Assembly: GCA_025360125.1 (NCBI GenBank)
Contig: JANYCU010000055.1
Span: forward strand, 55,752 to 119,751
Source of the DNA: Armatimonadota bacterium
GTDB taxonomy: Bacteria; Armatimonadota; Fimbriimonadia; Fimbriimonadales; Fimbriimonadaceae
DNA: 64,000 bases
Reading direction: 5' to 3'
Position 1 is the first letter of the stretch. Every line of letters begins with the position of its first letter. Of the stretch, positions 32,292 to 38,613 are shown one piece after another. Position numbers and translations under genes: made by a program. The notes beneath the pieces are model-generated. The model was not told the origin of the DNA, searched no databases, and saw nothing but the letters and a program-made list of their open reading frames with translations.

Positions 32292-35200
32292 TCACTTTTG
32301 TCCCACATTCGGATCGATCTGGGCTGGGGACCCTGTCCAGTATGTATGGGATGGAATTGTTTCGCCCTTCATCACCAGTGACAAGTCACCGATGTGGGCG
32401 TCGTGCTTCAACTCCGACTCACACAATATGACCGAATAGGTCCCCACCGAGCAGCGATCACCAATCGTAATCGGACCAATCTTCATGATCCGGTCCTCAA
32501 ACAAGTGGGCCTGAAGAGGCGCATTTGCATTGATGGCAACATCATCGCCAATTGAAATCAAATCCGTCTCAGTCCAATCGGTAGTATTCATAAATACGCG
32601 ATGCCCAACCTTCGCCCCAAGGAACCGCATAAATCCGGACATCATGGGCGTACCAACCAGTGGCAACACAAACAGGGGGACTCCAAAATCATGCAGCACC
32701 GCCGAGTAGGTCTCTACGTTCCAGACTTGCCGACTCCATAGTGGCTGGACCGAAGGCTTATATTTACCGACCAGTAACCATTTCGAAAACTTGCAGATAC
32801 ACGCGCCAATGAATGCGGTAACTAAATAGAGGATTGGAAGCGAAATCACACTCAAAACGATCGAGTGCATATCCCAAATCTCGACGAACGCCTCAATAAA
32901 ACCTGCCGCAATCATCAGCGAAAACATGCTCGGCAAAATAATTCGAAAGCCTTCATGAAAAAGACGTTCGATATAAAGTCGCTTGCTTGGACGATATGTG
33001 CGCTCAAGTCCAAAAGTATCGGTTACCTGGCGGCGCGGAAGCTTAAACGCGGGTGAACCGAGCCAAGCTTGCCCCACTTCATCACCCATCGTTTCAGGAC
33101 CGGGGGACGCGGAAAGAACACCCAAAAGGCTTTCATCAGGGATATTGGAGCCTTGCGGTACAACCGAGTCGTTGCCCAAAAAGACCCGCTTTCCAACGAT
33201 GGTCCGCAGCAGCGTAATCGTTCCATTTCGACGTAGCGGCATGCCAATACTAACTTCGCTAGCCAAAAAGCTTTCTTCGCCCATTTCAACCAAATCATAA
33301 GGCATTCGGCGCGGCAAGGCGATCTCGCAACGGGGCCCGCATTTCATTCCGAGTGCCTGGCACCAGTTTCGAGTGAACAGCGAATCATAAATCGGAACAA
33401 GAGTCCCTGTCATCAATTCAAGGTGCTTATCGGCAAACCACTTCCTTAGCCAATACCCTCCCGGATATTTGAAGACTCCGGGCTTCAACTTTCCGATAAC
33501 CAACCACTTAATCATCAGGGCTTGACCACAAGCAAATAAGACCAAGGCAATGGCATAAACTGGCTCCATCAAGTAGGCAAAAATGCCTTCGCTTTCGTTA
33601 TAAAGCGTAAACGCAATCGCCAGAAACGGGATTGAATCCAGTACCGCCAACACCGCAACGAGAACGGTTTGCAAAATAGCAAACGACACCAAGCGGTTCT
33701 TCGAGGGTCGCATCGTAGGATCATACGTCGGTAACAACCGCTCATCAACTTTATGCGCAGGGCTACCCGCCCACTCCTCATTGGCGGGAATTATGTTGCC
33801 CGCCTTAATGCACCCAAGATCCCGAAGGACCGAGCCATCCTCCATGATTCCCCCACCAGCAACCCCGGATCGAACGCCGACTACGCAGCCGTTACCAATC
33901 GATATTTTGCGGAGATGGAGTTGACCATTAGAAACTGTTGCGGCATGGAGCCACGCCGAGTTTTCAAAACTACAGTCATCCCCAATTGAAATAAGGCCCG
34001 GAGCGTCAATATCGAGCGACTCAAAGGTGACATTTTTGCCGACCTTTGCTCCAAGAGCACGCAGGAAAACGGTGGCCAAGGGAGTGCCCGTAATAAACGG
34101 AATCGGAGCAATCGCCAATATACGGTTTGCAAACCACCAGCGCAAAAATGTCGGTCCCCAAAGCGGATAAGTTCCCTCCTTTAAGCTTCCTCCCGTGATT
34201 CGTTTCGCAATCACAACAAACAAAAACAGGATCGGGACCTGGACGGCATTGATGCCTAAACCGACGAGGAATGCATGAAAGTCGGAGAGCCCGTTGTTGG
34301 AAAAGTAAATCGCGGCAAGAATCGGACCAAGCCAAGTGACGGCTTGGATTCCAAACAGGGCCAAGACGCAAAAGAACATGACCACCTTGGAAATCCGATA
34401 TTGCTTCTTGGAGACTTCAACAAAAACTGGCTCTTCCGAAATTGGACGAACCATTCCGTCTAGCAACGAGGCCAAGCTTCGAATTGTTGGATTCTCGTAA
34501 AGGTCAAGTACAGATAGCCCAGGATAACCGTGTGAACTCCTCAGAGTTGAAACGATTCGCGATGCGAGCAGCGAATAGCCACCTAGTTCCAAGAAGAAAT
34601 TGTCGTCGCACGAGATGTCTTCAGTCGCGAACAAATCTTGCCAAACACTCAGCAACAACGACTCGGTGTCGTTCATCGGCGGCAGAATCTCGCGCTCGAT
34701 TCGAACGGTGTGGCCATGCAAACTCGCGCATGCGCCGCGATCTATCTTTCCACTCGGCAGTACTGGGATCGATTCGACCAGCTCGACCGATTGCGGAACC
34801 ATGTAAGCGGGCATCGCCTCTCGCATGCGCTCAAGGAACGACGAAAACTCCAACTCGTGGTTTTCTTTGAGCCGAACCAATGCAATGAGCTGAGGATTAT
34901 CCGTGTCGGCCCCACGCACGATTACGACCGCGGTTTGCACCGAAGGCTCGGACAAAACATGGCTTTCAATTTCCGAAAGCTCAATTCGGTGACCGCGAAT
35001 CTTGACTTGGTTGTCAATCCGGCCAAGCCAGACAATATTTCCGTCCGCGTTGACCAGAACCCGGTCACCAGTTTTGTACAGAATCTTATTTCTGCGTTCG
35101 GGTTCGTAATACGGGTTTTCGAGAAAACGACCCAGACTCAACTCTTCCCTTCGGAAGTAGCCATTTGAAACTCCGATCCCTGCTATTGTCAACTCACCTT

Positions 35201-36212
35201 CATGCCCTAGCTGAACCTCTTCCAGGTCATCGTTCATCACATAACAGTCATATCCCGGCAAAGCCTGACCGATCGTCACAGGCTGACCTGGCGTGCAATA
35301 ACCAAAACTCGCCCCAACCGTCGCCTCTGTTGGTCCATAGGTATTGAGAATCTCTCGAGTCGGCTTCCACCACCGTTCGATCATCGATTTCGATAGACTC
35401 TCCGCACCAAACAAGACCCTTCGTAAAGTTGGAATGTCAACATCCACCATCGAAAGAAGAGTTGGCGCGCACGAAATGATCGTGATTTTTTGGTGATTTA
35501 AAAACTCAGCAAGTTCCTCTCCCGAGTGAACGTGGCTTGGCGAGGCAACCACCAATGTAGCTCCGGCCAAAAACGTCGGCCATACCTCTTCATGGTGCCC
35601 ATCGGATGCCGGACTAAAGCATTGCAAAACCTTGTCATCAGATTCAACGCGAATACAAACTGCCTGATTTCCAATGATGAAATTGGTAAGCGCTGCGTGG
35701 GTGATCGGCACTCCCTTAGGCCTGCCCGTTGTTCCCGAAGTAAAAATAATATAAGCCAGGCTATCAGGATCAATCTGGGGCGCAATCGCTGCCGGAGATA
35801 GAGACTTTGCCTCGGCCAACAACTCCTCTATTGCGCAAATCGGAGCCGTGCAGCCAATAAGATTTGTTGTTCGCTCCTCGGCAATAACGAGCGCGGGGTC
35901 GGCATCTTCGAGGCAGTCGGCGATTCTTCCCGGAGGCGATTGCGCATCAATTGGGACGTATGCCGCGCCAACCTTGAGAATTGAAACGAGGAGCAAGACT
36001 GCGTTTGGACCGCGTGGTAAAACGAAGGAAACCCGATCGCCCGCTTTGATGCCGCGAGCCGCCAAAGCAGCAGCCAATTGATTCGATCGCGATTCAAATT
36101 CTGAATAGGTCCAAGAAACACCATCAGCAACGACCGCAAGTTTAGAAGGAGTCGCGGCTGCCCAAAATGCTAATGACTCAAAAACAAAGTTCTGTATTTC
36201 GGCTTGCGGTTT
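32292..36212 (-). CDS. Pls/PosA-like single-module non-ribosomal peptide synthetase (A-PCP plus membrane C-terminal domain with hexapeptide repeats)
   Basis: A-domain IIFTSGTTGRPKGVPITH, NTYGPTEAT, YKTGDRV, LPSGKIDRG; PCP LELGGYSLLASR; C-terminal multi-TM with LbH-like repeats. Start estimated near MDSES; coordinate approximate (the ORF reaches 36323). Confidence 0.88.
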   Translation of the reverse strand, partial: KPQAEIQNFVFESLAFWAAATPSKLAVVADGVSWTYSEFESRSNQLAAALAARGIKAGDRVSFVLPRGPNAVLLLVSILKVGAAYVPIDAQSPPGRIADCLEDADPALVIAEERTTNLIGCTAPICAIEELLAEAKSLSPAAIAPQIDPDSLAYIIFTSGTTGRPKGVPITHAALTNFIIGNQAVCIRVESDDKVLQCFSPASDGHHEEVWPTFLAGATLVVASPSHVHSGEELAEFLNHQKITIISCAPTLLSMVDVDIPTLRRVLFGAESLSKSMIERWWKPTREILNTYGPTEATVGASFGYCTPGQPVTIGQALPGYDCYVMNDDLEEVQLGHEGELTIAGIGVSNGYFRREELSLGRFLENPYYEPERRNKILYKTGDRVLVNADGNIVWLGRIDNQVKIRGHRIELSEIESHVLSEPSVQTAVVIVRGADTDNPQLIALVRLKENHELEFSSFLERMREAMPAYMVPQSVELVESIPVLPSGKIDRGACASLHGHTVRIEREILPPMNDTESLLLSVWQDLFATEDISCDDNFFLELGGYSLLASRIVSTLRSSHGYPGLSVLDLYENPTIRSLASLLDGMVRPISEEPVFVEVSKKQYRISKVVMFFCVLALFGIQAVTWLGPILAAIYFSNNGLSDFHAFLVGLGINAVQVPILFLFVVIAKRITGGSLKEGTYPLWGPTFLRWWFANRILAIAPIPFITGTPLATVFLRALGAKVGKNVTFESLDIDAPGLISIGDDCSFENSAWLHAATVSNGQLHLRKISIGNGCVVGVRSGVAGGGIMEDGSVLRDLGCIKAGNIIPANEEWAGSPAHKVDERLLPTYDPTMRPSKNRLVSFAILQTVLVAVLAVLDSIPFLAIAFTLYNESEGIFAYLMEPVYAIALVLFACGQALMIKWLVIGKLKPGVFKYPGGYWLRKWFADKHLELMTGTLVPIYDSLFTRNWCQALGMKCGPRCEIALPRRMPYDLVEMGEESFLASEVSIGMPLRRNGTITLLRTIVGKRVFLGNDSVVPQGSNIPDESLLGVLSASPGPETMGDEVGQAWLGSPAFKLPRRQVTDTFGLERTYRPSKRLYIERLFHEGFRIILPSMFSLMIAAGFIEAFVEIWDMHSIVLSVISLPILYLVTAFIGACICKFSKWLLVGKYKPSVQPLWSRQVWNVETYSAVLHDFGVPLFVLPLVGTPMMSGFMRFLGAKVGHRVFMNTTDWTETDLISIGDDVAINANAPLQAHLFEDRIMKIGPITIGDRCSVGTYSVILCESELKHDAHIGDLSLVMKGETIPSHTYWTGSPAQIDPNVGQK

Positions 36213-36269
36213 GATCGATTCAGAGTCCATTTTGTGTGGCGTGCTTGCATCCCAGCTCTTGACGATAAC

Positions 36270-36314
36270 GGGGCAAAATGCCCCAATTTCGCTTAGGTTC
36301 GCGCCGAACCTAAG
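36270..36314 (-). promoter_or_regulatory. Two perfect hairpins upstream of the NRPS gene
   Basis: CTTAGGTTCG-CGC-CGAACCTAAG (36292-36314) and GGGGCA-AAA-TGCCCC (36270-36284). Confidence 0.7.
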
Positions 36315-36453
36315 AAGACTCAAATAATTTACCTGACACGAGCTTAAACCAAAGTACTATTTTTCGAGCCTCAAGGTACAAGGATCAAAGATCAGGACCC
36401 AAGACTCAAGGCTGAAAGCTCCTTGAGGTAGCATCCTGTCTAATTATTCCCTT

Positions 36454-37938: not shown

Positions 37939-38024
37939 TCATCCCTTCCGTCTCGCTCGCCAATCAGGAACGATGTGAAAATGGTTGGCGAGCGAGCCAC
38001 CTTCCCTATCTAGGGAAGGACTTT
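37939..38024 (-). repeat. Copy A of two-hairpin element
   Basis: On minus strand: AAAGTCCTTCCCTAGATAGGGAAGGTGGC + TCGCTCGCCAA-21nt-TTGGCGAGCGA + GACGGAAGGGATGA. Confidence 0.92.
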
Positions 38025-38037
38025 AGCGGGATGTCAA

Positions 38038-38445
38038 TCAGTTGTATATATCCTGAACGCAGATTTCACCCAGACAGATCGACTTAATCAAATTTGCAAC
38101 CCCATCCGGATTTGCCAAGACTCTTCGAGCTGAGATTCTAACGACCGAAATACCAGCTTGGGACAGAATCCTGTCTCGTACAATGTCTTCATTCCGTTTC
38201 AGTTCGTGAACGCTTCCGTCGATTTCAAAGACAATTTTGAGCTTCTCGAAATAGAAATCAGCCGTGAACTTTCCGAGCAAAGGTACTTGCCGCCGAAAGT
38301 GAAAATCCTTATTAACCTTCGGTCGCAACCGTTGCCAGATCATGACTTCAGGCAGGGACATTTCCTGTCTTAGCCTTCGGGCTCGAACTATTTTAGGCTG
38401 GGCAATCTTGCCAAACACATTTTCGTCTCGCATCGAAGAACTCAC
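38038..38445 (-). CDS. DUF559 endonuclease domain protein (Vsr-like fold)
   Basis: ARRLRQEMSLPEVMIWQRLRPKVNKDFHFRRQVPLLGKFTADFYFEKLKIVFEIDGSVH. Confidence 0.93.
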   Translation of the reverse strand: MSSSMRDENVFGKIAQPKIVRARRLRQEMSLPEVMIWQRLRPKVNKDFHFRRQVPLLGKFTADFYFEKLKIVFEIDGSVHELKRNEDIVRDRILSQAGISVVRISARRVLANPDGVANLIKSICLGEICVQDIYN

Positions 38446-38529
38446 TTCAATCCGATTCTACTTCCTAGATATCGTTTCGAACCAACAAAGTCTACTGAAT
38501 GAAACTAACCGACTATGGTGCAGTAAACA

Positions 38530-38613
38530 AAAGTCCTTCCCTAGATAGGGAAGGTGGCGCATCGATCATTCCTAGACTTTCTTTACCATTGATCGATGCG
38601 ACGGAAGGGATGA
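38530..38613 (+). repeat. Copy B of two-hairpin element, inverted relative to copy A
   Basis: AAAGTCCTTCCCTAGATAGGGAAGGTGGC + GCATCGATCA-21nt-TGATCGATGC + GACGGAAGGGATGA. Confidence 0.92.

Follow-up and report, generated by a model that had tools for sequence, protein, structure and literature searches.

DUF559 genes are accompanied across bacteria by intergenic repeats of the intrastrand-triplex type, an association that we regard as essentially certain and that suggests DUF559 to be the missing partner of this long-known 'triplex' repeat class. The unit that we describe in detail lies in a 64-kb stretch of DNA, referred to here as the window, and consists of a DUF559 nuclease gene bracketed by two inverted copies of such a repeat. 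We favor the reading, with a probability of roughly two in three, that it is a mobile unit organized like a REPIN/RAYT system but built around an unrelated nuclease, and we place this ahead of homing-like and domesticated readings. Few intergenic repeats of bacteria are as widespread as those of the triplex type, and DUF559 is a very common family. The link between the two makes both the spread of the repeats and the function of DUF559 directly testable, including with ycjD and BoxC in E. coli K-12.

The unit of the window (37939..38613, 675 bp) has the order end A, DUF559 gene, end B, and is flanked by the 3' ends of two convergent genes, rmuC and a GH78 alpha-L-rhamnosidase gene. Both ends are triplex-type elements of ~85 nt by sequence, folding, and the motif finder, end A at 37939..38024 on the minus strand and end B at 38530..38613 on the plus strand, and at the finder threshold used they are the only two such motifs in the window. 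Stem 1 is the same in both, CCTTCCCTA-GA-TAGGGAAGG, comprising a pyrimidine arm, a loop, and a purine arm (38000..38019, minus, in end A; 38535..38554, plus, in end B). It is followed by a variable second hairpin with a stem of 10-11 bp and a 21-nt loop, TGGC-TCGCTCGCCAA-(21 nt)-TTGGCGAGCGA-GAC in end A (37950..37999, minus) and TGGC-GCATCGATCA-(21 nt)-TGATCGATGC-GAC in end B (38555..38602, plus), and then by the tag GGAAGGGAT (37941..37949, minus, and 38603..38611, plus, respectively). The two-hairpin fold of each copy is well below that of shuffled sequences (z = -5.8 and -4.8), and a 29-mer shared by the ends occurs exactly twice in the window (37996-38024, minus, and 38530-38558, plus), where shuffles lead one to expect no occurrence. 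The gene between the ends (38038..38445, minus) begins with GTG and encodes an endonuclease of 135 aa in the DUF559 family (PF04480), with a PD-(D/E)XK fold of the Vsr/EDxHD type. Re-reading the sequence bore out the original prediction: the coordinates are right, as are the 29-mer common to both copies, the second stems that differ between them, the 21-nt loop of each, the shared GACGGAAGGGATGA, and the placement of the DUF559 gene amid inverted copies, with rmuC and the GH78 gene ending on either side. Its description of the gene as a lone one did not survive, as the genome carries 11 DUF559 genes and 23 copies of a broader element family.

The key feature, which the original prediction missed, is a mirror tag of the triplex type within the shared terminal block. 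In both copies, the tag GGAAGGGAT mirrors the stem-1 purine arm TAGGGAAGG perfectly (9/9), a match reached by 38 (end A) and 28 (end B) of 20,000 shuffles, and it would form a putative third strand. The combination of a pyrimidine arm, a purine arm, and a 3' mirror purine tag makes the window element an intrastrand triplex repeat of class II, the type known in E. coli as BoxC, PIT, or TM (Holder et al. 2015, PMC4666352). Read in this way, the second hairpin would be the linker that joins the duplex to the putative third strand and collapses the distance to the tag. Rfam contains no family that matches the unit. Elsewhere in the window, at 32292-36323, is a gene for a protein of 1343 aa with AMP-binding (adenylation) and carrier domains, the C-terminal parts of which resemble hexapeptide repeats.

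The association extends far beyond this genome. DUF559 loci were gathered blind to the repeats (80 from GTDB genomes and the rest from relatives, plasmid records, and E. coli), and a mirror-tag motif was found within 350 bp of the DUF559 gene at 105 of the 120 loci outside the window's own genome, the remaining 15 having no motif. Motifs occurred at 2.69 per kb near DUF559 genes vs 0.124 per kb more than 600 bp away on the same contigs, a 22-fold enrichment for which the finder thresholds were tuned on these same data and the controls were run at identical settings. The pairing of DUF559 with the repeats spans at least 18 named phyla, E. coli included. When the upstream flank of each gene was aligned with the reverse complement of the downstream flank, the median score was 41, compared with 22 for controls from the same contigs (p = 1e-31, a value that, like the other cross-genome statistics, ignores phylogeny). 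Among hairpins called blind to the tag, the 3' flank contained a mirror for 51% and the 5' flank for 15%, and hairpins fitted their own tag (0.833) better than the tags of other loci (0.763, sd 0.0036). Because the few hairpins that lie far from DUF559 genes show an equal rate, the mirror tag belongs to the hairpin class as such, and what is enriched near DUF559 genes is the number of mirror-tag elements rather than the rate of tags per hairpin. The tag points outward in the window family and inward in Xanthomonas and others, and at loci with motifs on both sides, 44 were in inverted and 23 in the same orientation. On a tree of the DUF559 proteins, linker type changes 17 times, a raw count that we set aside as evidence. 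On a Pseudanabaena plasmid, the repeat CCCCCTAAATCCCCCAATTCTGGGGG is present as inverted pairs on either side of a DUF559 gene, which points to membership of this cyanobacterial repeat in the class as well. Repeats with intrastrand-triplex potential are known from >260 genomes, and the main survey of them reported no associated enzyme or mobility gene (PMC4666352). Our search of published open-access papers found none linking DUF559 to triplex-type repeats.

The Xanthomonadales provide a measure of specificity. In 12 genomes of this order, the motif is found near 24 of 26 DUF559 loci, 16 of them with motifs on both sides, and near 0 of 30 loci encoding ParE toxins in the identical genomes. Across a sample of 100 Xanthomonadales genomes, at least five canonical motifs were present in 15 of the 27 with a strong DUF559 match vs 1 of the 73 without (p = 1e-9, kinship ignored), the reversed control pattern being zero throughout, and the sole motif-rich genome lacking a strong match (G159) has a partial one. 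High copy numbers of the repeat are confined to some lineages. A DUF559 gene enclosed by an inverted repeat pair is also found in Xanthomonas (L159).

In the window's own genome, the exact pattern of the element has 13 copies, with 0 for its reversed control, and the broader pattern has 23. Nine of the 23 lie within 600 bp of one of the 11 DUF559 genes, where 0.09 would be expected (p = 2e-16), so the possibility that copies might prove unlinked to DUF559 when examined genome-wide, named in advance as one that would undo the original prediction, can be set aside. The other 14 have no DUF559 gene nearby, as would be expected of gene-less copies and equally of repeats maintained by the host. Several of the DUF559 paralogs have their own variant of the repeat, and the copies flanking a gene within one locus have a common stem-1 variant. 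The variable second stem is 97.8% paired over 18 copies with many different stems, compared with 70.8% (sd 3.0) when the arms are permuted, and the stem difference in the window is thus neither unique nor accompanied by unpaired regions in other copies, the second outcome that had been feared. For 35 distinct second-stem arms pooled from this genome and the two genomes of the genus with clear families (G002 and G009), pairing was 89.3% vs 58.5% (sd 2.3) on permutation, and among chance matches to the pattern in other genomes, the second stem was only 39% paired. Pairing so far above both permuted arms and chance matches makes selection on pairing clear.

A reason for this selection may be found in the length of the linker. 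Near DUF559 genes, linker lengths are bimodal, 124 linkers being no longer than 5 nt, 8 measuring 6-9 nt, and 89 reaching 10 nt or more. Among 50 long linkers, half contain a helix of at least 6 pairs that closes the linker ends, compared with 15% of shuffled linkers, and this helix typically shuts within ~1 nt of both ends. Long linkers thus appear from their sequences often to be folded short, which would require the second stem to remain paired while leaving its sequence free. The linker of the window element, at 48-50 nt, conforms to this, its hairpin closing a few nt from the linker ends.

The difference between the second stems of ends A and B is best read, from few pairs, as marking left-end and right-end identity, with stem 1 and the tag common to both. 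Three lines of evidence point to this. In the pairs listed, second stems differ between inverted neighboring copies, and they match in four pairs of neighbors in the same orientation. In G009 (L199), an inverted pair is present on each side of a DUF559 gene, and in both pairs one stem type is on the minus copy and another on the plus copy. Finally, all five inverted TM pairs of E. coli consist of a type A and a type B motif, types that differ in their second loop (Holder et al., PMC4666352), and this loop corresponds exactly to the linker of the window element. The original prediction had seen in the differing stems either selection on a folded structure or templated rewriting. The former stands, given the pairing above permuted levels, and we dropped the latter in favor of subfamily divergence under pairing, which, with two end types, suffices.

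The protein encoded by the window gene is very probably a nuclease, as judged from its modeled fold, the nearest solved structures, and what is known of its relatives. It matches PF04480 with E = 7e-25 and 87.5 bits, well past the curated cut-off of 20.6, and the catalytic columns E, D, E-x-D, and H are aligned and conserved in the alignment of the family. The AlphaFold model is confident (mean pLDDT 85) and has a fold of the PD-(D/E)XK type, and the nearest solved structures are the Neisseria DUF559 protein 3hrl and the homing endonuclease I-Bth0305I (Foldseek E = 5e-4 for the latter), all of which agrees with the Vsr-fold DUF559 nuclease of the original prediction. YcjD was placed in the same superfamily as Vsr, adjoining it, in 2005 (PMC1189080), and in Caulobacter, the loss of a solitary methyltransferase leaves the DUF559 protein VsrA to cause DNA damage (PMC12907096), the latter being the one functional paper on DUF559 that we found among open-access papers.

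Comparison of occupied and empty sites bears on whether these units move. On a plasmid of Sphingobium RAC03, a TM-DUF559-TM unit (about L058:1373-1902), the ends of which have different linker stems that are each self-paired, sits where two carboxylase genes join; in Sphingobium V4 and RC1, these genes abut and the unit is absent, and at least 10 further Sphingobium records apparently have an equally shortened span. This comparison is made at 80-87% identity, shows no target duplication, and is complicated by tandem duplication at the locus. Beside the RAC03 unit, part of the carboxylase gene junction is repeated in tandem, and there is an additional hypothetical gene (L058:560-1380). For the window unit, rmuC is present in 18 of 20 genomes of the genus, and a different gene adjoins it in the two closest (73 and 72% identity), so the rmuC-GH78 neighborhood is not conserved and relatives offer no empty-site comparison. 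In E. coli, BoxC/TM copies come after ycjD, which has repeats on one side only and occupies one conserved place in the strains possessing it, being missing from the sapF-fabI interval in ~38% of genomes. We considered this interval as an empty site and rejected it, because the two intervals without ycjD that we examined (L146 and L147) contain a tetR gene and an operon for RND efflux instead, which is a swap and not a clean empty site. The presence of this efflux operon at the same place has also been described in PMC12817139.

Among known systems, the closest in layout is REP/REPIN with its RAYT (TnpA-REP). Both have short folded intergenic repeats in inverted pairs with many gene-less copies, and a nuclease gene, single or in low copy number, flanked by its own repeat variant; the repeats described here both flank DUF559 genes and occur dispersed, often as inverted pairs. 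However, RAYT is a HUH Y1 (tyrosine) transposase, whereas the window enzyme is by Pfam and structure a Vsr-like PD-(D/E)XK protein of DUF559; the GTAG tag at the foot of REP/RAYT hairpins is not conserved among the window-family copies listed; and the window repeat has a mirror tag of the triplex type, unlike REP/RAYT repeats. The DUF559 unit is therefore not a RAYT system, its enzyme and tag being different. The REPIN/RAYT-like layout with a Vsr-fold nuclease, as had been predicted, fits well and holds across phyla; recognition, cutting, and movement are our inferences.

The window element shares with BoxC/PIT/TM the pyrimidine arm, the purine arm, and the 3' mirror purine tag of class II, as well as the arrangement in inverted pairs of two types differing in the second loop, but loops under the ITxF definition are 1-6 nt, whereas the window linker is far longer and folded as a variable hairpin. 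A triplex has been demonstrated in vitro for an E. coli oligonucleotide and was not seen in vivo for the E. coli motif (PMC4666352). The CGTC-tagged REPs are likewise palindromic, and next to its second hairpin the window element has GACG, which reads CGTC on the opposite strand. These REPs have 8-9-bp stems, 4-5-nt loops, a CCA tail, and no known transposase (Di Nocera et al. 2013, PMC3733652), and the window element has two hairpins, the longer second stem and its 21-nt loop, and a mirror tag; no homology between the two was established. With I-Bth0305I and Vsr, the DUF559 protein shares the catalytic fold, but its gene is outside any intron, is flanked by complete inverted repeats, and is found at many loci.

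We propose that the unit is a mobile one, in which the DUF559 nuclease gene lies between two ends that can be told apart. Each end is of the intrastrand-triplex type, with a pyrimidine/purine hairpin, then a linker either very short or folded into a hairpin, and a purine tag mirroring the purine arm, on which the tag could lie back as a third strand. That the DUF559 protein acts on the repeats is likely. It would recognize the folded end, that is, stem 1 plus the tag, when the DNA is single-stranded or extruded, as it might be at a replication fork, and the linker hairpin would merely bring the tag home and label the end as left or right. We further infer cleavage of the repeats and their mobilization by DUF559, which would cut at the folded end and lead to the unit being copied to new intergenic sites, with gene-less end pairs copied in trans. 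DUF559 would in this way work as REPIN/RAYT does, a PD-(D/E)XK nuclease replacing the HUH transposase. If the enzyme does read a folded three-stranded end, this would be a mode of DNA recognition undescribed for mobile elements in the open-access literature searched, and if mobilization were proven, the units would constitute a new class of mobile DNA. A wider proposal seems to us evenly balanced, namely, that DUF559 proteins are the dedicated mobilizing enzymes of BoxC/PIT/TM-type repeats throughout bacteria, single-domain PD-(D/E)XK proteins that read three-stranded or hairpin ends with the linker telling left from right, and that E. coli BoxC represents the remains or targets of YcjD.

Other explanations fit part of these data. 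The gene could be a selfish one of the homing type, with gene-less copies cut as double-stranded DNA and the gene entering by homologous repair, the flanking repeats serving as homology arms. The nearest characterized fold, that of I-Bth0305I (EDxHD/Vsr), would suit this, as would the gene-less repeat pairs, which are potential targets, and the common stem-1 variant within each locus of the window's own genome, which could have arisen from gene conversion. A homing endonuclease gene interrupts a conserved target, however, and here both flanking repeats are complete, not halves of one cut site, and instead of one conserved host site there are many unrelated loci. Homing would also leave the spread of gene-less copies to new sites unexplained, and we consider it unlikely. 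More doubtful still is a domesticated maintenance role, in which DUF559 would cut hairpin or triplex structures that stall replication, its gene lying beside the repeats for regulation or through repeat accumulation and neither being mobile now. The single conserved place of ycjD in E. coli, the folding kept through compensatory change, and the position of repeats between convergent gene ends are all consistent with such a role, but it sits poorly with the presence in one genome of several DUF559 paralogs that each have their own repeat variant, with unrelated insertion places and one empty-site pair, and with high copy number in some lineages only.

The damage caused by Caulobacter VsrA once its solitary methyltransferase is lost (PMC12907096) raises the idea of a Vsr-like mismatch or restriction role tied to a cytosine methyltransferase, the repeats being incidental. 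We find this improbable, given that linkage to the repeats is strong and specific, that no methyltransferase gene adjoins the window gene, and that neither padloc nor ncbifam gave a firm assignment to restriction-modification or defense. The repeats could also accumulate next to small acquired genes simply as transcription terminators or insulators, as hairpins at the 3' ends of genes might suggest, and this is the least credible of the alternatives. ParE toxin genes are likewise small and mobile and have no motif in the 12 Xanthomonadales genomes compared, mirror tags and linker hairpins are foreign to terminators, and the E. coli motifs are without terminator activity (cited in PMC4666352). 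Against these alternatives, we retain the mobile unit as the preferred reading.

Several further observations concern repeats in other settings. In several Xanthomonadales, a triplex-repeat dimer is present in frame in a uvrD/recB-like helicase gene, giving a APSPLRGEGWGEG-type peptide (L157, L179, L180, L182, and L186). The insert is clear in several species, and we examined it for target duplications and abandoned it for this purpose, its boundaries being too blurred. Inverted triplex-repeat pairs ~0.9-1.1 kb apart in another genome (G138, L150-L156) were likewise considered as composite units and rejected, the DNA being rich in repeats and having no clear gene. Within the genus of the window's genome, other DUF559 paralogs are flanked by a second element family that has a GGAGAG-type tag and the sequence ACCTCTTTT/AAAAGAGGT-CGG or AGAGAGG (L007 and L008 on contig C16 of the same genome, and L052 in G002), and at one further locus of the window's own genome (L004, C56:192724), the DUF559 gene is flanked by a different, C-rich hairpin family, AACCCTTCCCC...GGGGAAGGG.
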